A DNA stretch of 37,518 nucleotides, from IMG/VR virus record IMGVR_UViG_3300029914_000067, positions 1 to 37,518 of that record; one strand, written 5' to 3'. Positions 10,284-28,304 of the stretch are shown piece by piece (within the stretch, counting starts at the first letter, position 1; every line of letters starts with the position of its first letter). This stretch comes from a virus. The notes beneath the pieces are model-generated. The model made no database searches. It was not told the origin of the DNA and saw only the letters and a list, made by a program, of their open reading frames with translations. Position numbers and translations under genes: made by a program.

Positions 10284-11312
10284 ATGAAAGTATTTATTAC
10301 CGGGATCGCCGGTTTTTTGGCCGGTCATTTAGCTGACGCTCTCACCGTTGCCGGGCATGAGATATACGGCTGTGATATTGTGCCTGTTGGCATGGCGGAA
10401 ATACTCTGGCTGCCAAGCGCGAGATATGGTGACATAGCTACGGCGGATTGTCGTGATTTTGCGATGATGTCCAGCCTGATGAAATCATCCCGGCCAGATG
10501 TGGTTGTTCACTGTGCCGCATTCCCTCACGAAGGGCTTTCAGTATTCTCGCCATCGACCATCACCGACAGCATCTATGGCGCATCGGGTTCAGTCTTTAG
10601 CGCCGCCATCGCCTCTGGCGTTCGCCGTATTGTGAATTGCAGCTCCATGAGCCGCTACGGTGCCATCCCTTCGCCTTTCCATGAGTCGGACGAACCCAAG
10701 CCAGTTGATCCTTATGGCATCGCCAAACTAGCGGCGGAGCGCACATTGGAATGTCTGTCAAAAATCCATGGCGTGGAGTATGTGACTGCCGTCCCTCACA
10801 ATATTTACGGACCGCGCCAGTGCCGATCGGACCCGTACCGGAACGTCATCGCCATAATGATGAACCGGATTTTGCAAGGTAAGTCGCCAATTATTTATGG
10901 TGGTGGCCAACAGCGGAGATGCTTCTCTTATATTGATGATGTCATTCCGTGCCTTGTGCAAATGGTGACATCGGACGATCCGGACATGCTAGGCCGCATT
11001 GTCAATATTGGACCCGACACAGGCGATGTGAACATTCTCCAATTGTGCCATATGGTCAGCAATGAGATGGGCGATAAGACATTGCCGCCGATTTTTTATG
11101 GTGGCAGGCCGGCAGAAGTGCAGCACGCCAATTGCAGCGGCGAACTTTCGCGCGGTCTATTCGGCTTCAAGCCGCAGACATCTTTAAAACAAGGCATTCA
11201 CTTGATGGCTGAGTGGATGCGGTCAGTTGGTCCGAAAGAGTTCAACTATCATCTTCCGCTAGAGATCGTTACCGACAAAACGCCAAAAACTTGGTCCCAA
11301 AAGGAGATGTGA
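10284..11312 (+). CDS. NAD-dependent nucleotide-sugar epimerase/dehydratase (extended SDR)
   Basis: 342 residues with the features of an extended short-chain dehydrogenase. The nucleotide-binding GIAGFLAG is at residues 7-14. 'VNCSSMSRYG' (~117-126) supplies the Ser of the active site. 'DPYGIAK' gives Tyr144 and Lys148 of the YxxxK pair. 'NIYGPRQ' and 'YIDDV' follow as in GalE-like enzymes. The family interconverts or dehydrates NDP-sugars in the cytoplasm; the exact sugar cannot be read from sequence. It is followed, with overlaps, by an HNH gene and a double glycosyltransferase-like gene, so it may supply a sugar donor for glycosylating virion, DNA or host surface. ATG 10284 has GGGGAA upstream. 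Confidence 0.85.
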   Translation: MKVFITGIAGFLAGHLADALTVAGHEIYGCDIVPVGMAEILWLPSARYGDIATADCRDFAMMSSLMKSSRPDVVVHCAAFPHEGLSVFSPSTITDSIYGASGSVFSAAIASGVRRIVNCSSMSRYGAIPSPFHESDEPKPVDPYGIAKLAAERTLECLSKIHGVEYVTAVPHNIYGPRQCRSDPYRNVIAIMMNRILQGKSPIIYGGGQQRRCFSYIDDVIPCLVQMVTSDDPDMLGRIVNIGPDTGDVNILQLCHMVSNEMGDKTLPPIFYGGRPAEVQHANCSGELSRGLFGFKPQTSLKQGIHLMAEWMRSVGPKEFNYHLPLEIVTDKTPKTWSQKEM

Positions 11313-11809
11313 TGAACTGGACGCTCCCAGCAAGATCATGCCTTGGTGGTCTAAGCGCTGAATTAATTGAAATTGCGCGACAACTCTTTGAAAAGCATGC
11401 ATGGGGTGATCCAAATAGTGGATGTTGGATTTGGTCCTTGACACTTGATAAACGCGGATACGGACAGATTTCTATTGGCAGCACAAAGGACGGAACGGCT
11501 AGAGTAGTTAAGCCGCATCGGCTCGCATGGGAATTATATCGCGGGCCGCTTCAAAATGGCGTTAACATCGATCATAGAGTTTGTCGAAATAAATGGTGCG
11601 TCAATCCGTGGCATTTAGCATTGTGTACAAAGCTTGAAAACGCCGAGCAGCCAGATGGCATGATTGGCATCAAGCGCGCCAAAACGCATTGTCCGCACGG
11701 TCATCCATACTCTGGTGACAATCTTTATGTTACTTCGCAGGGCTTCCGCCAATGCATCGCATGTGCGCGAATGCGCTATATCAAAAAGAAGGAAAAACTT
11801 TATGCTTAA
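11312..11809 (+). CDS. HNH endonuclease (HNH_3 type) with C-terminal zinc-finger-like tail
   Basis: 165 residues from ATG 11312, chosen because AAGGAG lies 5 bases upstream and it overlaps the previous stop (TGATG). Motifs in order: 'GCWIW' (38-42), 'YGQI' (50-53), 'HRLAWELYRG' (69-78), 'IDHRVCRNKWCVNPWHL' with the HNH residues Asp87-His88, Asn98 and His101, and a C-terminal 'CPHGHPYSGDNLYV...CIACARMR' Cys cluster. This is the common mobile phage HNH group that nicks or cuts DNA and often invades between genes. It sits between the epimerase and the glycosyltransferase-like gene and overlaps both by a few bases, so it has been integrated without breaking translation coupling. Confidence 0.85.
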   Translation: MNWTLPARSCLGGLSAELIEIARQLFEKHAWGDPNSGCWIWSLTLDKRGYGQISIGSTKDGTARVVKPHRLAWELYRGPLQNGVNIDHRVCRNKWCVNPWHLALCTKLENAEQPDGMIGIKRAKTHCPHGHPYSGDNLYVTSQGFRQCIACARMRYIKKKEKLYA

Positions 11810-13202
11810 TGGCCTTTGGTTCCTTCCCACTCGGCGTCGCTTGGCGCAGTTGCAAGCCCTTATGGATCAATGTGTTCTTACAGGTATGAGCACGCCAGGG
11901 CTAATTTTGGTTCATCGGGATGAACATCAGGAATTGGGGAGGCAATACAGCGCCCTAAATCTTCCGAATGGATGGCGCGTCGCAGTGACCGATTCCGAAG
12001 GAATGGCCGCAAAAGTTCAAGAGGCGTATTCCAATAATGCTTTGTTGGATTGGGTCGGCGTATTAACCGATGACATGTGGCCCATCACTCAAGACTGGGA
12101 CGTGCGGTTGCTTTCCGGCCTAGAGGGCTGGAACATTATTACTGGCAACGATATGGACCAAGCGCCCAAAAGAATGGAAAGCGCAACTGTTTGGTCCGGG
12201 GATCTTCTCAGATCGATAGGCTATATCGCACCGCCAGGATTGCAGCATCTTTTCTTTGATGATGTACAAGAATGCCTCAACATCGCCACCGGCTGTATGC
12301 GGTGGATGATGGACGTGAAGGTGGCCCACCGCCCCAAGACATATTCCAATCAGGCCGATGCTACCGCAGCGAAAGTCAAAAGTTTTCATAACGTGGACGA
12401 AGAGCGGTTTCGCGCATGGGTGCATGATGAATTTCCAAAGGCGTGCGAGGCGGTTCTTAAATGCGCCGAAGAGCATGGCGTTCGCGTAGACAGGCCCGAC
12501 CTGAAAGGCGTGTCGCTTTATCTCTCAACGCCATCGGGCGCTGGTGAGTTTGACCGTCGTTATGTCAAGTCTCTCATTCAAACCATAGAGATGGTGCGAT
12601 CTGCCGGTGGTGAAATCGACTGGGGCGAGATGCCGTATTGCGCGGATCTGTCCTATGCCCGCAACCGGATTTTGGGGGCGTTTCTGCGCTCACGCCACAC
12701 CCACATGCTGATGATTGACGATGATATGGGGTGGAGCCCGCACGATGTCTTGAGGCTGATCCAGACCGGGCTGGACTTTGTTGGCGGCGCCGGGCCGAAG
12801 AAGCTTTATCCGCTTCGCTTCTGCATTCACTCCCGAGACGATCAAGGGCGCGAAGTGCATGGAACTTTCCACGAGAACACCGGCACGCTTGAAGTGACCG
12901 GGATCGGCACCGGATTCCTGCTCGTGACCAAGGCGTGCGTCGAGCGCATGGTCGCCGCCTATCCGGAATTAATCTTTGATCCCGGCGAGGGGCAGACCGA
13001 ATATGCCCTTTTTGACCCGGTGATTGTGAACAAGACTCGGTATTCTGACGACTTCGCCTTTTGCTGGCGGTGGCGGAAAATCGGTGGCCAGGTGCATGTC
13101 CTCCCATCGGTCAAGCTGGCCCACATAGGGTCGCACTGCTTTGAGGGCTCGCTGCTGGATGCCATGCTGGCCGAGCCGGAAAGGGCTCAAGCGGCGGAAT
13201 AA
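11802..13202 (+). CDS. Protein with two glycosyltransferase-A-like domains
   Basis: 466 residues from ATG 11802, chosen because AGAAGGA lies about 8 bases upstream; it overlaps the HNH stop by 8 bases. The second half (~235-450) is a clear GT-A-like phage glycosyltransferase: 'LYLSTPSGAGEFDRRYVKSL', 'CADLSYARNRILGAFL', the metal/sugar-nucleotide motif 'MLMIDDDMGW' (Asp306-308), 'GIGTGFLLV' and a late His in 'VKLAHIGSH' (His441). The first half (~20-185) has its own 'WVGVLTDDMWP' (Asp90-91) and 'ATVWSGDLLRSIGY', suggesting a second, more divergent GT-A-like domain. Together with the epimerase it forms a probable glycan-modification unit. Donor and acceptor are unknown. The fusion could make a two-sugar or dual-acceptor enzyme. 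Confidence 0.75.
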   Translation: MLNGLWFLPTRRRLAQLQALMDQCVLTGMSTPGLILVHRDEHQELGRQYSALNLPNGWRVAVTDSEGMAAKVQEAYSNNALLDWVGVLTDDMWPITQDWDVRLLSGLEGWNIITGNDMDQAPKRMESATVWSGDLLRSIGYIAPPGLQHLFFDDVQECLNIATGCMRWMMDVKVAHRPKTYSNQADATAAKVKSFHNVDEERFRAWVHDEFPKACEAVLKCAEEHGVRVDRPDLKGVSLYLSTPSGAGEFDRRYVKSLIQTIEMVRSAGGEIDWGEMPYCADLSYARNRILGAFLRSRHTHMLMIDDDMGWSPHDVLRLIQTGLDFVGGAGPKKLYPLRFCIHSRDDQGREVHGTFHENTGTLEVTGIGTGFLLVTKACVERMVAAYPELIFDPGEGQTEYALFDPVIVNKTRYSDDFAFCWRWRKIGGQVHVLPSVKLAHIGSHCFEGSLLDAMLAEPERAQAAE

Positions 13203-13522
13203 TGGCAAAGGAAAGCAACCTCTTAGACGACATGGATGCGGCGGCGAAGCAATTGCTTAGTTCCGTGAACGGGACTACTATAACTACGGATGGCCCCGGT
13301 GCCGAACCGCAACCTATTGACATAAAAGGTAGGATTGCGGCTTTTGCAGCTGTGACCGACTATCTGGCGGTAAAGCACAAGATCCAACCTGCAGGGGCGA
13401 AGAAAAATGGCCTTGACGGATACCGCACCGCAATCAACGGTGGAGCGACTGGGCGTAGAGCCAATCGTCAGGGTGCCTCGGCTTCAGGCGGTGCCGCCGA
13501 TGCCGAAGACGGAGATGACTGA
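13202..13522 (+). CDS. Small hydrophilic protein, unknown
   Basis: 106 residues starting at an ATG overlapping the previous stop (TAATG). The N-terminal ~65 residues look like a normal folded or helical protein ('LLDDMDAAAKQLLSSV', 'GRIAAFAAVTDYLAVKHKI'). The last ~40 are Gly/Ala/Arg low complexity and overlap the next gene in another frame. A similar short protein often precedes membrane proteins in phage tail regions, but I cannot name a family. Confidence 0.55.
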   Translation: MAKESNLLDDMDAAAKQLLSSVNGTTITTDGPGAEPQPIDIKGRIAAFAAVTDYLAVKHKIQPAGAKKNGLDGYRTAINGGATGRRANRQGASASGGAADAEDGDD

Positions 13523-13769
13523 GCCCGACGATGGCGCGGCTCGCCTAGCCACCTATCAAGCGATCGCATCTGTCATTGCCGCCAGCGCCGCTGTGCTGGC
13601 CACCCGCGTCATTCTGCTTCTTGGCATGATCGGCGCCTTCGTCTTGGCGGTGATCGCCGCGGATGGGCGCTCGTGGATTACTGTGGCGGTCCTGATCGCC
13701 TATGCAGTTCTCGTGCTGATCCCACTTGTTCTGCTTGAGACGCGCACGAAGTGGCGGAGCGGCGGCTAA
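13407..13769 (+). CDS. Small membrane protein with two transmembrane segments
   Basis: 120 residues from ATG 13407. An in-frame ATG at 13515 gives 84 residues and would cut the overlap with the previous gene from 116 to 8 bases, so the start is uncertain. Two hydrophobic segments, roughly 'ILLLGMIGAFVLAVIAA' and 'ITVAVLIAYAVLVLIPLVLL', are joined by a short polar turn, ending in a basic tail. The topology fits a small holin-like or accessory membrane protein, but a better holin candidate lies at 24903-25286, so no lysis role is assigned. Confidence 0.55.
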   Translation: MALTDTAPQSTVERLGVEPIVRVPRLQAVPPMPKTEMTEPDDGAARLATYQAIASVIAASAAVLATRVILLLGMIGAFVLAVIAADGRSWITVAVLIAYAVLVLIPLVLLETRTKWRSGG

Positions 13770-14467: not shown

Positions 14468-17400
14468 ATGAAAGCCTTAAAATTTGCAGCAACATTTGGC
14501 GCGCTTTTAGTTATTGCTTCGTTTTCTCCTGCGGTCGCCCAAATTGGCGGCGGGGTCGTAATGGTGCCGCCTATCGTTCCAGGTGATTGCGCAGAATGGC
14601 AGGGGGTAAATGTCCTCCAAGATTCCGGCGGTACTTGCGGCGGCGGCGGGGGCGGGGGCAGCCCTGGTGGGCCAAATACTACAGTTCAGTACAACCATGC
14701 CGGTGCGTTTGGTGGCATAACCGGACTTACTTCTGATGGAACCGCTGCAACGGCGGCCAGCGGCGATCTCAAACTCTCCGGCTCGACCAGCGGAACGGTC
14801 ATTCTCAACGCCCCGGCCACAGGTGCCGGCACACTCACCCTGCCGCAGGGCACCGATACGGTTGTTGGCCGCAATTCAACCGATACCCTGGCGAATAAGA
14901 CGCTGACGGCTCCGGTTATGACGGCACCCGTTCTGGGCACGATTGCATCAGGCGTCGGAACCAATCTGACCGGCATTCCCAATTCCGCCCTTGTCAACTC
15001 CTCGACCACTATCGGCGGCCAATCCACGGCTCTGGGAGCCTCGACAACCAATCAGGGCAACGGCCCCAAGATCCAGCTTTCGACTGGCACGACGACCACC
15101 AACGATTGCGTGCAGTACGATGTCAACGGGAACACGACGGATGCAGGCTCGCCTTGTGGCTCAGGCGGCGGTTCTGTCAGCATTACGGGCGGCAACGGCA
15201 TTTTGGTCAGTCCCAGCCCGATCACGGGCACGGGCGTTGTTTCGAACACCATCACCACGAACGCGCAAATAGGAACAACCTATGCCACGCAGACGACGGA
15301 TGGCGGCAAGATCGTTTCGCTGAACAACGCTTCTACGGTTGCGGTTTCCCTCAGTTCAGCAACCACGACCGGCTTTGGTCTCGGCTTTGGTCTCGACTAC
15401 TACAACATCGGTGCGGGCACGGTTACGGTCACGCCGACTGGAACGATTAACGGCAATGCGACACTTACGGTTCTGACCAATCAGGATTGCTCGGTCTATT
15501 CAGACGGATCGAACTATCATGCGTCGTGCAGTTATGTTGGAGGCGGTGGCGGAACGCCCGGCGGCTCAACGACACAACTTCAATACAACAACGCCGGTTC
15601 ATTCGGCGGTATCATCGGCATTACCACAAACGGAACGGCGCTGACCGCAGCGTCGGGCGACTTGCAGCTGTCTGGTTCCGGCTCGGGCACGTCGATAATC
15701 AACGCGCCTGCAACAGGCGGCGGAACGCTTACGCTGCCTTCCGGCACCGATACGCTTGCGGGACTCGCCGCGACACAGACACTGACCAATAAGACCCTGA
15801 CCAGCCCGACGCTCACCGGGCCTGCGCTTGGAACGCCTGTGTCTGGTGTTGCCACCAATCTCACCGGGCTTCCGCTGACCACCGGCGTCACAGGTTCCCT
15901 GCCGAATGCGAACGGTGGCGCTGGATCGTCCACTGGCATCTTGCAGGCGGTCAGCGGGACGGTCGGCACGGTCACGCTCGGGTCAGGCCTGAATTACACC
16001 AGCACAACGCTTTCGCAGACAGTCACAGCCAACAGCGTTGCGACCCAGGCATATACCTTGGCCTCGACGGACTGCGGAAAAACTGTTCTCATGGAATACG
16101 CGCTGGGCTCGACCGCGCTTTCCTTCTCCAATCTCGGCACGCTCGGTGTCGGCTGCAAGATCACACTCGTTGCTGCGACACAGGACATGATCGTCACGCC
16201 TGTCGCTTCCACGACAATCGCTTGGCAAGGCGTGCTGATCAGCAATCCAACGACCTTTACGATCAAAGCCGGGACGAGCGCGTCGTTCTCCGCACCTGAT
16301 AGCACGGGCTTCCAGTCAATCGGCGGGACGCTGCTGGTCCAAGGCTCGACGACTGTCGTCGGTGGTACATCAGGCTCTGCTCTGTCTGAAGTCAGCGGCG
16401 TGCTGACCGATGTCACGAAAGTCAATAGCTCTGTCCTCTCGCGCACCAGCGGGGGAACGCTGCAAGAAAGCACGACATTACCCAGCGGCGTGACAATTCC
16501 TGCCGCGATCCTTTCGTCCAGCCCCTCGCTTGCAAGTCCGGCGTTTACCGGAACGGCGTCTGGCGCAGGAACAATTCCCACCACGATGCTTGCGAGTCTC
16601 GGGACTGGTGTGGCAAGCGCATTGAACGCAAATACCAGCGGCTCTGGAGGCATATGCCTTTCGTCTGGATCGGCGTGTTCCAGTTCCGGTGGCGGCATGT
16701 TCGGTTATTCCGACAACGGCGTGACCGTTACTGCCGGAACCTATTATGTACCAATTTACGGCGGCGGCGCTCCGTCCAGCACTGAGGCATCCGTTAGTGT
16801 CCCCTCGCCTTCAGCGACTACGGGCGTAAATCTTTCCGTGTCGATCAGTGCCACTCTTGGCGGCGCGTCTACCGGCTTCACTGTTACCTTACGCAAGAAC
16901 GGCGCGGATACAGCCCTTACTTGCACATTCAATCCGTCGTCTGTTACCGCTTGCACCGACTTCAATGCCGGCCACGCCGTAAGCATCATCCAGACTGACG
17001 TAATTGACTTCAAGATCGTTACTGCTGGCACGATCGTTGGAACGCCTACTGTTACTATTACCGCCAATAACGGCACGTCAAACGTCGGCGTCACGCAAGT
17101 TATCGTGACGGTTCCCTCGCGCGAAACCGCGACAGGCTGCAATATCACTGTTTCCGGCACCTGCGCGATTACCGACAATACTCAGACCGCTAACACGATT
17201 TTTGCCGGACCTTCATCTGGTTCCGCTGCGACTCCGACGTTCCGCGCATTAGTGGCCGCCGATCTGCCGCAGGTCCCGCAGATAAATGCGTATGTGGCGG
17301 GTAGCTGGTATTCAATTCCACCTTATGGCACAGGTGGTGCAGGGACGGCTCAGACCCTTGCGGCCAGCACCGCATACGGTGAACTGATCTATATTGATAA

Positions 17401-18921: not shown

Positions 18922-21822
18922 ATGCGATATCTCCAACGTCGGTCAGTTCTCAATATGGGCGCTTCGATGTTAGCCTTGGGTGCATTCACGCGAGATGCTG
19001 ATGCGTTTCTATTGCATCGTGGTGGAGTTGCTGCTCCGTCTAGTGGGGCCCTTAGCTTGCCGCAATCGTTAAATAATCTCGATGCCTCCAACAGCTATGT
19101 CGCGCCGAAGGTTAGCTATGGTGTGGCTTTCGCGGAAGGCGATATTCCTTTAGGCGGTTCTGCCACCGTCACGGATTCGAACGGCAACCCTGTCACTGTC
19201 CAGCAAGATCAAGTCGTCACCAATCCGGCTACCGGCCTTATTCGCTTTGCGCGTCTAAGTCATCCCTGTTCGGAAACCTTCGGGCCATCGTCTAGCAAGG
19301 GCTATACAATCGGCGCTTCGGCAACCGCGCCGAACACGGCGATCAATTCGGCATGGCTCGCGTCGGGATCAGCAGAGGCAACCCTAGCGGCCAACACGAA
19401 CTTCAACCTGCAATTCTCTGGCTTCGACGCCGGGGTGAATACCTACCAGCTTTCCGTCAATACGATCCTCAGCAGCTTCAGCCAAGGTCCGAATTACGGG
19501 ACAAGCTATCCGCAAGGCGGCTGGGTTCGCACCGCCCAAGGCCCGAACTGCATCGACTGGCAGTTCTGGGGCTACATCGTCAATTCATCGAGCGGGAAAA
19601 CACAGGGCTACGTTCGCGCCGATATTTTCCTCAAGGCATGGAGTCCGACAGGTCCGTTCGAAGCCTATGTCATGGTTCACCAGCCGAATATGTGGAACAC
19701 GGTGCCGCCGAACTCTGGCGCCGAGATGTACAACCAGAATCCGGGCCGGTTCGCCACGCTCTGCACGCTCTACAATGGTGCGACGCCGGTAGCCTACTTC
19801 GGCGGCTCGAATGAGTATCGCGCGCAGACTGTTGCAAACTCGAGCTTCAATACTGCCAATAATACGCTGACCATGACTGCAGCTTTGTGGCGAAAGAATT
19901 TTGGCGGCGCGGTTGTCTTTTCCTCTACTGGCGCAGTTCCAACAGGGTTATCGGCTACAACCCTCTATTGGCCTACTGAGGTTGGCGGGGTGGATGCCAA
20001 CAATCCCGTTCTTGCGACAAACCGAACAGCGGCTTCCCAGGCCGTAGGAAGTAGTAGTGCTTGGGTAGCGAATACGGCTTACGGCGTAGGTGTAAAGCGG
20101 CTCAATAATAACGTGCTCTATTACTGCACGACAGCTGGAACATCGGCATCTAGTGGCGGCCCGACTGGTGTTGGGGCAGGCATCGTTGACGGCACCTGTC
20201 AGTGGACGAATTTCACCGTTCCCTTCAGTGATCAGGGCAGCGGCACGATAACTATGTACTCCGTCAATTCCTGCTATCCAGCGACGGGCTGGGTTGGTGG
20301 GGATATTAACGGCGATCCGGTCTGGATTGGCTCTGGTTCGCGTCCTCGGATATCCGCTGGAGAAGACCTGACGTATCTCACGACCAAGACAAAATCTACG
20401 CCGCCGTATGGGCTAGATGCTGCAACCGTCACAGCGACGGCCACGCCTTGGGTCTATAATCCGATGTATCCGGCAACGGGATATTTTGCGATTTCCACAT
20501 CAGGAGATAATGCTGGTGATCAGCGCATCGGTCCGATCAATGAGGATGCGGTCAATACTTTCTACAATCCCGCTGACCCATACTATTACAACAGCTCGCT
20601 CCAGGCAGGCCTCGCGTGGGTCAACTACCCGACGCAGTTCTACGACGAGCGATCCGGGTATCCGACGACATTTAACAACGGCCCTGCAAAATCCGGCACA
20701 TCATACACAAGCATGGCATCGCCGCAGCCGAATTGGGATTGCTTTAATGCTTCTGCCGGTGGTTTCGGCGTCGGCAACTGGGTCCCGTGGAGTACCGCCT
20801 TCAATGACCAGAATGGCTTCGTAAATGGAAATCCGTCTGGTTCCAGCGGTAACTATTCGTCAGTTCCTGGCTCGCACATGCCTGCGATTTGGTATGGCCC
20901 GTATCTAAAAACAGGTGCCATGCCCCTCCATGATATTGGAGTATCCCAAGGCAACTATGCCGCTGCTTTTTATGTCAGCCCGAATACCGAGCATGGGAAC
21001 CAGGCAATCTCAGGCACGACGTATTATCGGATCATTAGCCCAGGTCAGTACACATCAACCCAAGAGCGCTCCTTTGGCTGGTGCCTGCGCATTCTTACTA
21101 ATGCGCGTTGGCTTATCAGAGACGCAAATCCGTGCTCGCCCTATCTGAACGATATCTGCGCCGACAATGCATTCGCACAGAATTATTATTACGCAAATAC
21201 TCAGCCATCCCAAGCGGCCACATTTGGAATGCTGTCCATTGCAGATCACACGACGCCCCCGTCAGGGCATGGGACGATCTCGCCGTTCCAAATCGCATTC
21301 TGTCACATCAGTATCGGGATGGAGGCGTGGCGAAATACTGACAGCGGCATTTGGAAAACGTGGCTTAGCAATTACCTGATCAACTTCTGGGCACTCTATT
21401 CTGGTACTGGCGTTTACGCCATGGGGACGTACACAACGTCCATCTGCTCAACCCAACAGAATTTCAGCACCTGCTATCAAACTCAAAGCGCCGTGAACAC
21501 TGCGACTTACAACGACAACGAGAACGGGGGAACATTCCCGGCCCCTAATCCTACGCAGCCCTACATCTATTCCTTTAACAACGCCGGGAACTACAACCCG
21601 ACAAATTACCCGGCTGACTGCAACGATTATCCGAATGTCATGCGTATGGCACTGACGGTTGCGTGCACGGCGCTTCCCACCAACGCAACGCTGGCTGCGC
21701 AGTTGACTGCCATGAACTCCACCTTCGAATCGCTGAGTGGTCAGTCAACGCAAGGTGGTTGCACATGGTCTGGGGCCGGAAATAACCACAAGACCTTCTG
21801 CTGTTATAAGGCTGCGGCATGA
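18922..21822 (+). CDS. Large exported protein, possible (alpha/alpha)6-toroid polysaccharide enzyme
   Basis: 966 residues. The N-terminus MRYLQRRSVLNMGASMLALG has twin Arg followed by a moderately hydrophobic stretch and 'ADA', resembling a Tat signal. Residues ~70-330 are beta-rich ('GPNCIDWQFWGYIV', 'GYVRADIFLKAWSPTGPFEA'). The region from ~650 has 'SHMPAIWYGPYLKTGAMPLH', 'RSFGWCLRILTNARWLI' and 'FQIAFCHISIGMEAW', spaced like helix pairs in toroid-type lyases/hydrolases that I associate with exo-rhamnogalacturonan-lyase-like phage proteins. The C-terminus is Cys rich ('CTWSGAGNNHKTFCCY'). It follows the peptidase directly (stop TAG then ATG). Enzyme class is a moderate-confidence inference; the Tat assignment is likewise only motif-based. 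Confidence 0.6.
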   Translation: MRYLQRRSVLNMGASMLALGAFTRDADAFLLHRGGVAAPSSGALSLPQSLNNLDASNSYVAPKVSYGVAFAEGDIPLGGSATVTDSNGNPVTVQQDQVVTNPATGLIRFARLSHPCSETFGPSSSKGYTIGASATAPNTAINSAWLASGSAEATLAANTNFNLQFSGFDAGVNTYQLSVNTILSSFSQGPNYGTSYPQGGWVRTAQGPNCIDWQFWGYIVNSSSGKTQGYVRADIFLKAWSPTGPFEAYVMVHQPNMWNTVPPNSGAEMYNQNPGRFATLCTLYNGATPVAYFGGSNEYRAQTVANSSFNTANNTLTMTAALWRKNFGGAVVFSSTGAVPTGLSATTLYWPTEVGGVDANNPVLATNRTAASQAVGSSSAWVANTAYGVGVKRLNNNVLYYCTTAGTSASSGGPTGVGAGIVDGTCQWTNFTVPFSDQGSGTITMYSVNSCYPATGWVGGDINGDPVWIGSGSRPRISAGEDLTYLTTKTKSTPPYGLDAATVTATATPWVYNPMYPATGYFAISTSGDNAGDQRIGPINEDAVNTFYNPADPYYYNSSLQAGLAWVNYPTQFYDERSGYPTTFNNGPAKSGTSYTSMASPQPNWDCFNASAGGFGVGNWVPWSTAFNDQNGFVNGNPSGSSGNYSSVPGSHMPAIWYGPYLKTGAMPLHDIGVSQGNYAAAFYVSPNTEHGNQAISGTTYYRIISPGQYTSTQERSFGWCLRILTNARWLIRDANPCSPYLNDICADNAFAQNYYYANTQPSQAATFGMLSIADHTTPPSGHGTISPFQIAFCHISIGMEAWRNTDSGIWKTWLSNYLINFWALYSGTGVYAMGTYTTSICSTQQNFSTCYQTQSAVNTATYNDNENGGTFPAPNPTQPYIYSFNNAGNYNPTNYPADCNDYPNVMRMALTVACTALPTNATLAAQLTAMNSTFESLSGQSTQGGCTWSGAGNNHKTFCCYKAAA

Positions 21823-25650: not shown

Positions 25651-26079
25651 ATGAATCGAAGTAAAATCCTAGTCGAGCTTTTGGAGATCAAGAAACTTTT
25701 GTGTCGCCTTACGTCTGGCAGGGACACGAAAGCAACCATCCTCGTCGGACAAGGAAAGATAGAAATCATGAGCTTCAATATCACCAGCGGCCAGTCAAAG
25801 ACCGCAACTGTCGTTTTCACCGATGCCAACGGCAAGGTTCAGCCGCTGCCCGCCGGTAACATCCCGGTCTGGACTGTCATTCCGGCCGCTGCGCTTAGCT
25901 TGACGCCAGCTGCCGATGGCATGAGCTGCGCCATTCTTGGCGGAACGGCGCTCGGTCCGCTTACCCTGACTGCAACGGTCGAGGGCGATCCGACGCCTGG
26001 CGTTGATCCGCTCACCCCGTCGATCGTCGGCACCGTTGTTGCCCCGGAAGATACCCAGGGCACGATCACGGTTGCTTAA
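25651..26079 (+). CDS. Ig-like domain protein
   Basis: 142 residues from ATG 25651 (AAAAGGG upstream). A second in-frame ATG at 25768 with AAGGAAAG upstream would give a 103-residue protein starting 'MSFNITSGQSKTATVVF', which fits the fold better. The beta-sandwich pattern 'TATVVFTDANGKVQPLP', 'PVWTVIPAAALSL', 'LTLTATVEGDPTPG', 'GTITVA' resembles bacterial Ig-like (Big_2-type) modules found on phage surfaces. The 39 residues between the two ATGs are basic and helical, and could be a separate short leader. Possible decoration protein. Confidence 0.6.
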   Translation: MNRSKILVELLEIKKLLCRLTSGRDTKATILVGQGKIEIMSFNITSGQSKTATVVFTDANGKVQPLPAGNIPVWTVIPAAALSLTPAADGMSCAILGGTALGPLTLTATVEGDPTPGVDPLTPSIVGTVVAPEDTQGTITVA

Positions 26080-26749: not shown

Positions 26750-27430
26750 GTGCTGACCATAACGGCCATATTGGACCAATATGCTTGGCTATACCAAGAC
26801 ACTTTGCCTGAGCCACCGGGAACGTGGGATCACGTTATCCCGGTGGACGGGGCTTATGCCGCCATCAAGCGTGTGGACGGCACGGACTATGTGATGCTGC
26901 GCGGGTCCGTGACTTTTCTCGACTGGCTGGAAGATTTCGAGGATTGCGCGCTTCCCTATCCGGATCCGGTATTAGGCGATGTCCACCCCGGAGCGCGACA
27001 GGGCGTCCTTGAGGTCAAGGATCAGATTGACGCGCTCGTGGGTGAGCATGTTGTGTTCGTCGGACACAGCCTTGGCGCGATGCACGCCGCACTGCTGGCC
27101 GGATATAGGGCCGCTGTCGGAAAGCCGGTGGATGCCCTTATCATGTTCGGGGAGCCACGGAGCGGTGGCGCCAGGCTGTCGGCCATCCTCGCCAACACCA
27201 TGGTCCAGTCCTACCGGAACGCCGATATGAACGGACACGATATTGTGACCGATGTAGCACGAAATATTCCGCCACTACTGCCCTATCAGCATGTCAAAGA
27301 CCCTTTGACAGATTGCCACCACTCACCGCGCGCCGATGATATTTGGCTTGCTTTTAGATATCATCACGGGGGCCACTATTGCCGCGCCTTTGGCTGCGGT
27401 GGAGTCGCCGCGCTTTCGCTGCCAACCTAA
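26750..27430 (+). CDS. Class 3 lipase-like alpha/beta hydrolase
   Basis: 226 residues from GTG 26750. Lipase class 3 features appear in order: 'VMLRGSVTFLDWLEDF' (49-63, the RG..DWL oxyanion region), 'VFVGHSLGAMHAALLA' with Ser107 in GHSLG, 'ALIMFGEPRSGGARLS', then 'RNADMNGHDIVTDV' with Asp164 and 'NIPPLLPYQHV', which is the family's pre-His motif. A cluster of His ('YHHGGHY', ~205-210) offers the third catalytic residue. The family hydrolyses acylglycerols or other esters. No signal peptide is visible. It lies just after the lysis genes, so attack on membrane lipid or on outer-membrane ester bonds during exit is possible but unproven. Confidence 0.75.
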   Translation: MLTITAILDQYAWLYQDTLPEPPGTWDHVIPVDGAYAAIKRVDGTDYVMLRGSVTFLDWLEDFEDCALPYPDPVLGDVHPGARQGVLEVKDQIDALVGEHVVFVGHSLGAMHAALLAGYRAAVGKPVDALIMFGEPRSGGARLSAILANTMVQSYRNADMNGHDIVTDVARNIPPLLPYQHVKDPLTDCHHSPRADDIWLAFRYHHGGHYCRAFGCGGVAALSLPT

Positions 27431-27461: not shown

Positions 27462-28304
27462 ATGCGATGGTCGAATGAGCGCAAAGAAGAATTGCGCGCG
27501 CTCTGGTTAGATGGCGGCACGATTTCCAGCATCGCCAGCGAGATGAAAACAACGCGCGGCTCTATATCCGGTCAATCGATGCGCATGCATCTTCACTACG
27601 CCACTGGCGAGCAAAAGCCAATTCAGCCGGGCAGCGATGCAGATTTATATGCGACAACGCGGTTTCTTTCCCATGTTCAGCAGGCACCGCAGTTCGGCGT
27701 TCTGAAGCCCGGCGGCTATCAGCGAAAACTTGGCAACCGCGTGATGAAAGGCAAGTGGAAAGGCATGCCGATCTTCAGCTTGACACTGGAAGAACGCGCG
27801 ACGTGCCCGCGGTCCTGCAAAATGTGGCTTTCATGCTATGGCAATAACATGGGCCGCTCAGTGCGCTATGCTCATGGCGAGGCGCTGATGGACGCCATCT
27901 ATGCTGATCTCGTGCGACTTGAGCATCTTCATCCTCGCGGCTTTGTTGTGCGGCTTCATATTCTCGGAGACTTCTTTAGCGTCGAGTATGTGCAGTTCTG
28001 GCGCGACATGCTGGATGAATTTATGGAGCTTCGCGTTTTTGGTTATACCGCCCGCAGCAGTGGTAACCGCGATCTAATCGGATGGGCGATCGAGCAATTG
28101 CGCGACGAACGATGGGAGCGCTTTGCCGTCCGCACATCCGGCGCCGTCATGGGGCCGCGTACCAAGGTCATCGCTCGCGAATATCCTGGCGATGGCGCGA
28201 TCACATGCCCAGCACAGACCAACAAGACTTCGTGCTGCGCGACGTGCGCGCTATGCTGGGAGCCCGCCGCTCGCAATAAGGTGATTGCGTTCCTGCGCCA
28301 TTAA
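27462..28304 (+). CDS. GcrA-like helix-turn-helix fused to GP88-like Cys-rich domain
   Basis: 280 residues; GGGGAGATAA precedes the ATG. Residues 1-45 ('MRWSNERKEELRALWLDGG', 'ISSIASEMKTTRGSISG') follow the N-terminal pattern of GcrA, the alphaproteobacterial cell-cycle regulator that binds sigma-70 and CcrM-methylated DNA. The rest (~60-280) resembles the phage GP88 family (PF17338): 'FSLTLEERATCPRSC', 'WLSCYGNNMG', 'VVRLHILGDFFSVEYVQFWR', 'VFGYTARSS'. A C-terminal Cys cluster follows (Cys249, 258, 259, 262, 265). Cys115/119/125 plus the C-terminal cluster could bind metal or an Fe-S centre. GP88 function is unknown. The HTH suggests DNA or methylation-dependent targeting. It is the first gene of the replication half. 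Confidence 0.75.
   Translation: MRWSNERKEELRALWLDGGTISSIASEMKTTRGSISGQSMRMHLHYATGEQKPIQPGSDADLYATTRFLSHVQQAPQFGVLKPGGYQRKLGNRVMKGKWKGMPIFSLTLEERATCPRSCKMWLSCYGNNMGRSVRYAHGEALMDAIYADLVRLEHLHPRGFVVRLHILGDFFSVEYVQFWRDMLDEFMELRVFGYTARSSGNRDLIGWAIEQLRDERWERFAVRTSGAVMGPRTKVIAREYPGDGAITCPAQTNKTSCCATCALCWEPAARNKVIAFLRH

Follow-up and report, generated by a model that had tools for sequence, protein, structure and literature searches.

A candidate glycan-modification cassette with a two-domain GT-A glycosyltransferase among the late genes of a tailed phage

The IMG/VR virus record IMGVR_UViG_3300029914_000067, analysed over its entire 37,518 bases (the window) and possibly a fragment, carries three overlapping genes that encode a predicted nucleotide-sugar epimerase of the extended short-chain dehydrogenase/reductase (SDR) type (P0003), an HNH endonuclease (P0002) and a 466-residue protein with two glycosyltransferase-like halves (P0001; Table 1). 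The epimerase gene opens with ATG at 10284 and has its stop at 11312, and the gene for the two-motif protein opens with ATG at 11802 and has its stop at 13202. Together with the next gene, g13202, these genes form an overlapping run with the junctions TGATG, ATGCTTAA and TAATG, the overlaps measuring 1, 8 and 1 bases, respectively. A sequence-only reading of this DNA had described a single translationally coupled run. The overlaps agree with this from the epimerase gene through g13202, but a gap of 46 bases precedes the epimerase gene, so that they stop short of the gene upstream. That gene resembles a DNA ejection protein (phrog_26400, 8.8e-16). Downstream of the cassette are a gene with virion-protein-like repeats, long fibre-like open frames at 14468 and 18922 that have no PHROG match and, further on, a gene at 21819 resembling an exopolysaccharide (EPS) depolymerase (phrog_4250). 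The same reading had placed the two enzymes together between internal virion genes and fibre genes; the flanking genes fit this placement, but the two enzyme genes are not adjacent, since the HNH gene lies between them.

Table 1. Positions of the genes, domains and motifs of the cassette in the window.
Feature	Position	Strand	Basis
Extended-SDR nucleotide-sugar epimerase/dehydratase P0003, 342 aa	10284..11312	+	PF01370, phrog_540, invariant catalytic residues
YGIAK (Tyr144...Lys148), SDR catalytic YxxxK motif	10713..10727	+	Translation; both residues invariant in 9-row alignment
HNH endonuclease gene P0002, 165 aa	11312..11809	+	phrog_826 3.7e-37; PF13392 1.7e-11
Two-domain GT-A/GT-A glycosyltransferase P0001 (predicted), 466 aa	11802..13202	+	AlphaFold2 model; Foldseek and VIA-align matches to GT-A enzymes
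N-terminal GT-A domain of P0001	11802..12446	+	phrog_14945 / actinophage glycosyltransferase family
Asp90-Asp91, N domain of P0001, at GDD position of family	12069..12074	+	Alignment of N rows
C-terminal GT-A domain of P0001	12489..13151	+	phrog_1574 family; STIV A197-like fold
Asp306-Asp307-Asp308, DxD motif of C domain of P0001	12717..12725	+	Alignment of C rows

The two halves of P0001 matched different protein families. Residues 71-216 match the phrog_14945 glycosyltransferases (4.8e-11) and residues 233-450 match phrog_1574 (1e-23), the function of which is listed as unknown. In Pfam and NCBIfam no family matched P0001 at a meaningful score, and matches to PF12362 (E 0.11 and 0.023) were put down to chance. 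The N half is 22.9-25.9% identical over about 215 amino acids to three Streptomyces/Arthrobacter phage glycosyltransferases; its relatives were found in 67 phage records at E up to 1, and the three that were translated are standalone proteins of 218-220 residues. Relatives of the C half (66 records at E up to 0.01) are mostly standalone and come from alphaproteobacterial phages, cyanophages, pelagiphages and others. The C-family profile matches A197 of Sulfolobus turreted icosahedral virus (STIV), a solved GT-A enzyme (2c0n), at E=1.3e-7, and, of 14 C-family members, 9 match Anp1 glycosyltransferases with E values no higher than 1 (the lowest is 2e-5, and that of P0001 itself 0.15). When the sequences of solved structures were searched, P0001 alone gave one chance-level match, which was not A197, and the N-family profile gave nothing useful. 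When profiles of the N and C families were compared, the probability was at most about 1%, and no sequence relation was detectable. An origin of P0001 by internal duplication is therefore unsupported, and two different families were probably joined in this protein.

Structure prediction agreed with these family matches. The AlphaFold2 model of P0001 was made from 25 of 60 alignment rows (P0001, 4 other fused rows, 8 of 31 N rows and 12 of 24 C rows) and has a mean predicted local distance difference test score of 84.2 and a predicted template modelling score of 0.68. In this model the N half (residues 1-213) superposes on the mannosyltransferase PcManGT (6yv7) with a Z score of 15.8 and a root-mean-square deviation (rmsd) of 3.6 over 200 aligned residues, and the C half (residues 237-449) superposes on STIV A197 (2c0n) with Z 17.2 and rmsd 2.2 over 159. 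The sequence-only reading had proposed structure prediction of each half as its test and an N half lacking a GT-A fold as the outcome that would count against it; a GT-A fold is predicted for both halves. In whole-length Foldseek searches the best matches are the tandem GT-A enzymes K4CP, LH3, PmHS2, COLGALT1, mimivirus R699 and LARGE1, and a comparison with predicted viral structures ranked phage proteins highest, many of them named GT-A type glycosyltransferases. The assignment of P0001 to the glycosyltransferase class, with two predicted GT-A domains, is well supported.

Residues at the motif positions were then compared with the two families. For the aligned rows, 56 N and 83 C domains were reduced by similarity to 37 and 26, and 6 N and 2 C rows were dropped, leaving 31 and 24. 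In one alignment MAFFT misplaced the N-only rows onto the C half, in a second it did so with the ends of N rows, and neither was used for modelling; residues were counted in the second alignment, in which the N columns counted (up to residue 176) precede the misplaced ends. Both acidic motifs noticed from the sequence alone, Asp90-91 and Asp306-308, were found to be conserved in the families (Asp90 and Asp91 in 31/31 N rows, Asp306 and Asp308 in 24/24 C rows). Invariant in the N rows and kept in P0001 are D90, D91, D117, H149, D153 and H176, and the same holds in the C rows for D306, D308, D417 and H441. P0001 deviates at Thr89 (Gly in 31/31 N rows), at Asp416 (Glu in 24/24 C rows, a conservative change) and at Gly331 (Tyr in 24/24 C rows, with Gly also in the three fused relatives counted); as aligned, these deviations leave every motif acid in place. 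Because the Asp and His positions of each family are kept, both heads could be catalytically active. It is unlikely, in our estimate, that one half instead serves as a scaffold without catalytic activity, like the accessory GT-A-like domain of collagen glycosyltransferases, and that P0001 adds a single sugar. The best whole-length matches include the two-domain proteins LH3 and R699, in which the second GT-A-like domain is catalytically silent, and the changes at Thr89 and Asp416 affect residues shared by all other rows of their families. A dead half is opposed by the retention of the listed Asp and His residues in both halves and by the conservative nature of Asp for Glu at 416.

In the case of the epimerase, PF01370 matches P0003 at E=4.6e-41 (141.3 bits, compared to a Pfam gathering cut-off of 20.9) and the nucleotide-sugar epimerase family phrog_540 matches it at 8.4e-49; like the PHROG matches of the two halves of P0001, these lie well beyond chance. 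Ser120, Ser121, Tyr144 and Lys148 are invariant in a 9-row alignment, and the catalytic Ser and YxxxK are retained. In the GxxGxxG motif Gly7 and Gly10 are retained, and the third position is Ala13 followed by Gly14, with Gly in the other 8 rows. Among 25 of 27 NCBIfam families compared, P0003 reached no family cut-off (best LegB, 90.1 bits vs 475). These matches and residues give good support to the enzyme class that had been read from the sequence, a putative extended-SDR nucleotide-sugar epimerase.

A single-sequence search of viral contigs with P0001 returned one pattern match and no relative, but profile queries did find relatives: 61 N loci, the best 80 of 558 C loci and the best 80 of 389 epimerase loci, which are the loci counted below. 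The N+C fusion was present in six other viral contigs among the 61 N loci (IMG/VR loci L100-L104, and L160, where the end of the contig truncates it). These six contigs represent three lineages, since L100-L102 do not differ from one another and L160 shares 97% identity with L100; the lineages are 29-30% identical to P0001. The fusion is uncommon but recurrent. The sequence-only reading had called a fusion of two GT-A-like halves unusual; two GT-A folds are indeed predicted, but the recurrence in these lineages, and the tandem GT-A arrangement known from K4CP, PmHS2, LH3 and LARGE1, temper that description. When genome contigs were scanned with the fusion alignment, 98 pattern matches but no relative came up, and as the scan used two short patterns, absence from cells is unproven. 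Among the open-licence papers listed in literature searches (10 of 723 in one of them), no title or abstract opening dealt with the fusion or with the module described below.

As read from the loci, the fused gene of L100, L103 and L104 is preceded by protease and major-head-protein genes and followed by head-tail-adaptor genes, and adjoins radical S-adenosylmethionine (SAM) and methyltransferase genes. In five other loci (L105, L109, L115, L116 and L117) the C-family glycosyltransferase, the N-family glycosyltransferase and an SDR are encoded by separate neighbouring genes, and the gene order in L105 and L117 is major capsid protein, C-family gene, N-family gene, methyltransferase-like gene, SDR. 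A further candidate for the split form, L004 (MW202476), was rejected because its upstream protein has no match to the N half. An SDR gene lies less than 3 kb from the N gene in 28 of the 61 N loci, compared to none of the best 80 C loci; these are raw counts that include near-duplicates, and many C loci have short flanks. Above the Pfam cut-off, the genes near the cassettes include radical SAM and FkbM (L100), methyltransferase (L104), cupin and GT2 (L163) and GT2 (L161) matches; in L105, L161 and L163 the methyltransferase matches fell short of it.

Profiles of the major capsid protein, protease or adaptor matched in 11 of 11 loci that have both an N and a C gene, compared to 1 of 50 other N loci, a count that is partly circular because the profiles were made from loci that were counted, so that it amounts to support and not proof. 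The same profiles matched in 0 of the best 80 C loci and in 8 of the best 80 epimerase loci. L109, L115 and L116 match them despite being absent from profile building. By PHROGs, independently of these profiles, L100 encodes a major head protein and a head-tail adaptor, L104 a head-tail adaptor, L163 a minor head protein, and L105, L117 and L169 each a major head protein; L103 matches head-protein and maturation-protease families. For one guessed-structural gene each of L161 and L163, PHROGs returned only families of unknown function.

The closest viral epimerases among the best 80 (L161-L168) are 44-50% identical to P0003 and lie in clusters with glycosyltransferase and methyltransferase genes, recognised mostly by eye, with Pfam run on genes of L161 and L163. 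Cellular epimerases are equally close (Magnetospirillum sp. UT-4 50%, Uhrbacteria metagenome-assembled genome 50%), and no gene of the N or C family was found in the DNA available for the 80 cellular epimerase loci. In a 24-row epimerase tree viral and cellular sequences are interspersed and the position of the window is unsettled, and no direction of transfer is claimed for this reason. Two features of the viral epimerase clusters were observed in passing. In L163 (1452-4864) a cupin, a protein with sub-threshold similarity to MptE-like proteins and to nucleotide-diphospho-sugar transferases, a GT2 and the epimerase are encoded in a row, with a minor head protein gene downstream. Proteins with collagen-like Gly-X-Y repeats are encoded downstream of the epimerase cluster in L161 (12551-13000) and L162 (6657-7700), and are possible glycan acceptors.

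All in all, we consider it somewhat probable that the stretch, placed in a tailed phage's late (virion) operon, is a cassette for glycan modification, with a virion protein as its most likely target. That it forms a glycan-modification unit, as the sequence-only reading had it, is supported by the gene neighbourhoods of the relatives. P0003 would epimerise a nucleotide sugar drawn from the host pool. P0001 would be a soluble, bifunctional enzyme, with one head probably transferring a first sugar to the acceptor and the other adding a second. The sugars would most likely be attached in the cytoplasm, while late proteins accumulate, to one of the structural proteins of the phage's own virion. 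We infer a virion target from gene position, both the late-operon position in the window and the head-gene neighbourhood of the N+C relatives, as well as from the predicted solubility of the enzymes, the mycobacteriophage precedent and the suggestion made for STIV A197 (both below). A wider proposal, which we put forward tentatively, is that unrelated tailed phages share a portable, head-gene-linked module of a C-family glycosyltransferase, an N-family glycosyltransferase and an SDR, with methyltransferase or radical SAM helpers, that builds a particle glycan of at least two sugars. P0001 would then be its fused core, a self-contained primer and extender with a layout comparable to that of the eukaryotic and giant-virus protein glycosyltransferases that have two GT-A domains.

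Several results weigh against the reading as a virion-modifying cassette. No capsid gene was recognised in the window, where the cassette is flanked by ejection-protein-like and fibre-like genes and not, like the genes of the fused relatives, by a major capsid protein gene. The fused relatives have no SDR within 3 kb, so the trio and the fusion occur together only in the window. The SDR profile was built from 3 sequences. Viewed from the epimerase side the link is weak, an N gene lying within 3 kb in 4, and a C gene in 3, of the best 80 loci. The head-gene profiles were made from L100, L103, L104, L105, L117, L163 and L169. Standalone C-domain relatives lie near DNA replication genes in the phages OC, phiM19, Cr30 and DLP6. 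The 120-residue open frame g13407 (13407-13769), which follows the cassette and overlaps the preceding frame by 116 bases, is strongly hydrophobic (19-residue mean 2.91); it has no Pfam or PHROGs family match at E <0.9. The Magnetospirillum sp. UT-4 epimerase has methyltransferase-like and membrane-protein-like frames nearby, as judged by eye, and such frames near cellular epimerases fit a role at the host surface.

The chief rival explanation is that the cassette alters a host surface polysaccharide (O-antigen or capsule) during infection or lysogeny and hides the receptor from competing phages or from progeny after release. We regard this as rather unlikely. In the cellular loci L241, L242 and L245, whose epimerases are equally close, methyltransferase-, glycosyltransferase- or flippase-like reading frames were seen by eye near the epimerase gene, but none of the 80 cellular epimerase loci contained, in the DNA available, a gene of either glycosyltransferase family. 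The fibre-like genes near the cassette, the EPS-depolymerase-like gene further on and the hydrophobic g13407 would also suit a surface role. A parallel exists in pelagimyophages, whose glycosyltransferases among tail-fibre genes are interpreted as O-chain modifiers (PMC7029224). Neither enzyme itself has a transmembrane-like stretch, the peak 19-residue hydropathy means being 1.29 for P0001 and 1.48 for P0003. Gtr-type O-antigen clusters have a GtrA flippase in the same genome and a membrane-anchored transferase. No GtrA-type protein (PF04138) was found in the record, which may be a fragment; 7 of 14 control genomes were positive. The head-gene matches of the 11 N+C loci, with their partial circularity, likewise argue for the particle and against the host surface.

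Glycosylation of modified bases in the DNA of this phage, of the kind known from T4 and other hypermodified phages, is the least supported of the readings, and we consider it very improbable. Virus-encoded DNA glycosyltransferases are a known class, going by the title of a work cited in PMC12619734. In large T4-like phages several standalone C-family genes have recombination/repair and clamp genes nearby, and one of four N-family members has a sub-threshold match to the TET-associated glycosyltransferase (TAGT) family (PF20691, E=0.053). In the window, however, the cassette is placed in the virion module. The possibly incomplete record contains neither a thymidylate synthase/hydroxymethylase-type gene (PF00303, found in 9 of 14 controls) nor a TAGT (found in 1 of 14); nor does it have a Tet_JBP match (PF12851), for which the controls were silent too.

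Comparison with known systems places P0001 closest to the fused proteins of L100-L104 and L160, which it resembles in the N + C order, in identity (29-30% over the aligned length) and in the motif residues. The surroundings differ: L100, L103 and L104 have head, radical SAM and methyltransferase neighbours and no nearby SDR, whereas the window has the epimerase and the HNH gene. The actinophage phrog_14945 glycosyltransferases (Streptomyces phage Phredrick gp78, Arthrobacter phage Mimi gp177) are homologous to the N half over about 215 amino acids but are standalone (218-220 residues), and in the three loci read they adjoin genes annotated as a further glycosyltransferase and as a nucleotidyl- or adenylyltransferase. 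The phrog_1574 proteins (Ochrobactrum phage OC p012, Caulobacter phage Cr30, cyanophage ACG-2014f) are homologous to the C half but have a single domain. STIV A197 shares with the C half its fold (Z 17.2) and a significant C-family profile match, and is likewise single-domain; according to PMC10551542 this GT-A enzyme is essential and may glycosylate the coat protein of STIV. K4CP (chondroitin polymerase), PmHS2 (heparosan synthase), LARGE1 and LH3 have two GT-A domains per chain, as predicted for P0001 (Foldseek E down to 4.9e-12). However, they are only 7-13% identical to P0001 and belong to different families, and the whole-chain rmsd of 16-25 indicates that the relative placement of the domains differs. 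Glycans on capsid proteins, and phage-encoded glycosyltransferases, are reported for mycobacteriophages Che8 and Rita in PMC11256854. These phages offer a precedent for sugar on a phage particle, a likeness in the function described.

Proven glycans on tailed-phage particles are few, and the cases met in PMC11256854 and PMC12619734 are mycobacteriophages. If the proposed role is true, a phrog_14945 and a phrog_1574 domain, joined in one protein or encoded side by side and accompanied by an SDR next to head genes, would be a signature for predicting which tailed phages glycosylate their particles. It would also suggest a function for phrog_1574, and the order and specificity of two sugar transfers could be tested in one small soluble protein.

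Two loci with C-domain relatives showed other arrangements. In L008 (3911-5188), from a podovirus annotated with P22-like genes, the C-domain relative is fused, as judged by eye, to a SAM methyltransferase-like domain and sits between coat and tail accessory genes. In cyanophage ACG-2014f (L007, 3974-7521) the genes for a C-domain protein, a glycosyltransferase annotated as family 2 and a nucleotide-sugar epimerase fit within 3.6 kb, beside tail-collar genes.

The HNH gene between the two enzymes is probably a mobile insertion or passenger outside the sugar chemistry. The lowest GC content of the surrounding region (0.490) was found around this gene, in the 1-kb stretch 11001-12000. Promoter- and terminator-like sites around the cassette were about equal in number to those in shuffled sequence, and megablast of window positions 1-25000 against phage records gave no match. 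Elsewhere in the window, the protein encoded at 27462-28304 has a GcrA-like N-terminus (PF07750, 4.2e-6) along with GP88/DUF7227 matches; GcrA is alphaproteobacterial, so this N-terminus hints at an alphaproteobacterial host. A class 3 lipase-like gene (26750-27430; PF01764, 5.6e-11) lies between lysis-like and replication-like genes. A tRNA-Ala (GGC) is located on the minus strand at 25779-25860, within the plus-strand open frame 25651-26079, and is possibly an attachment-site remnant or a tRNA-like element.

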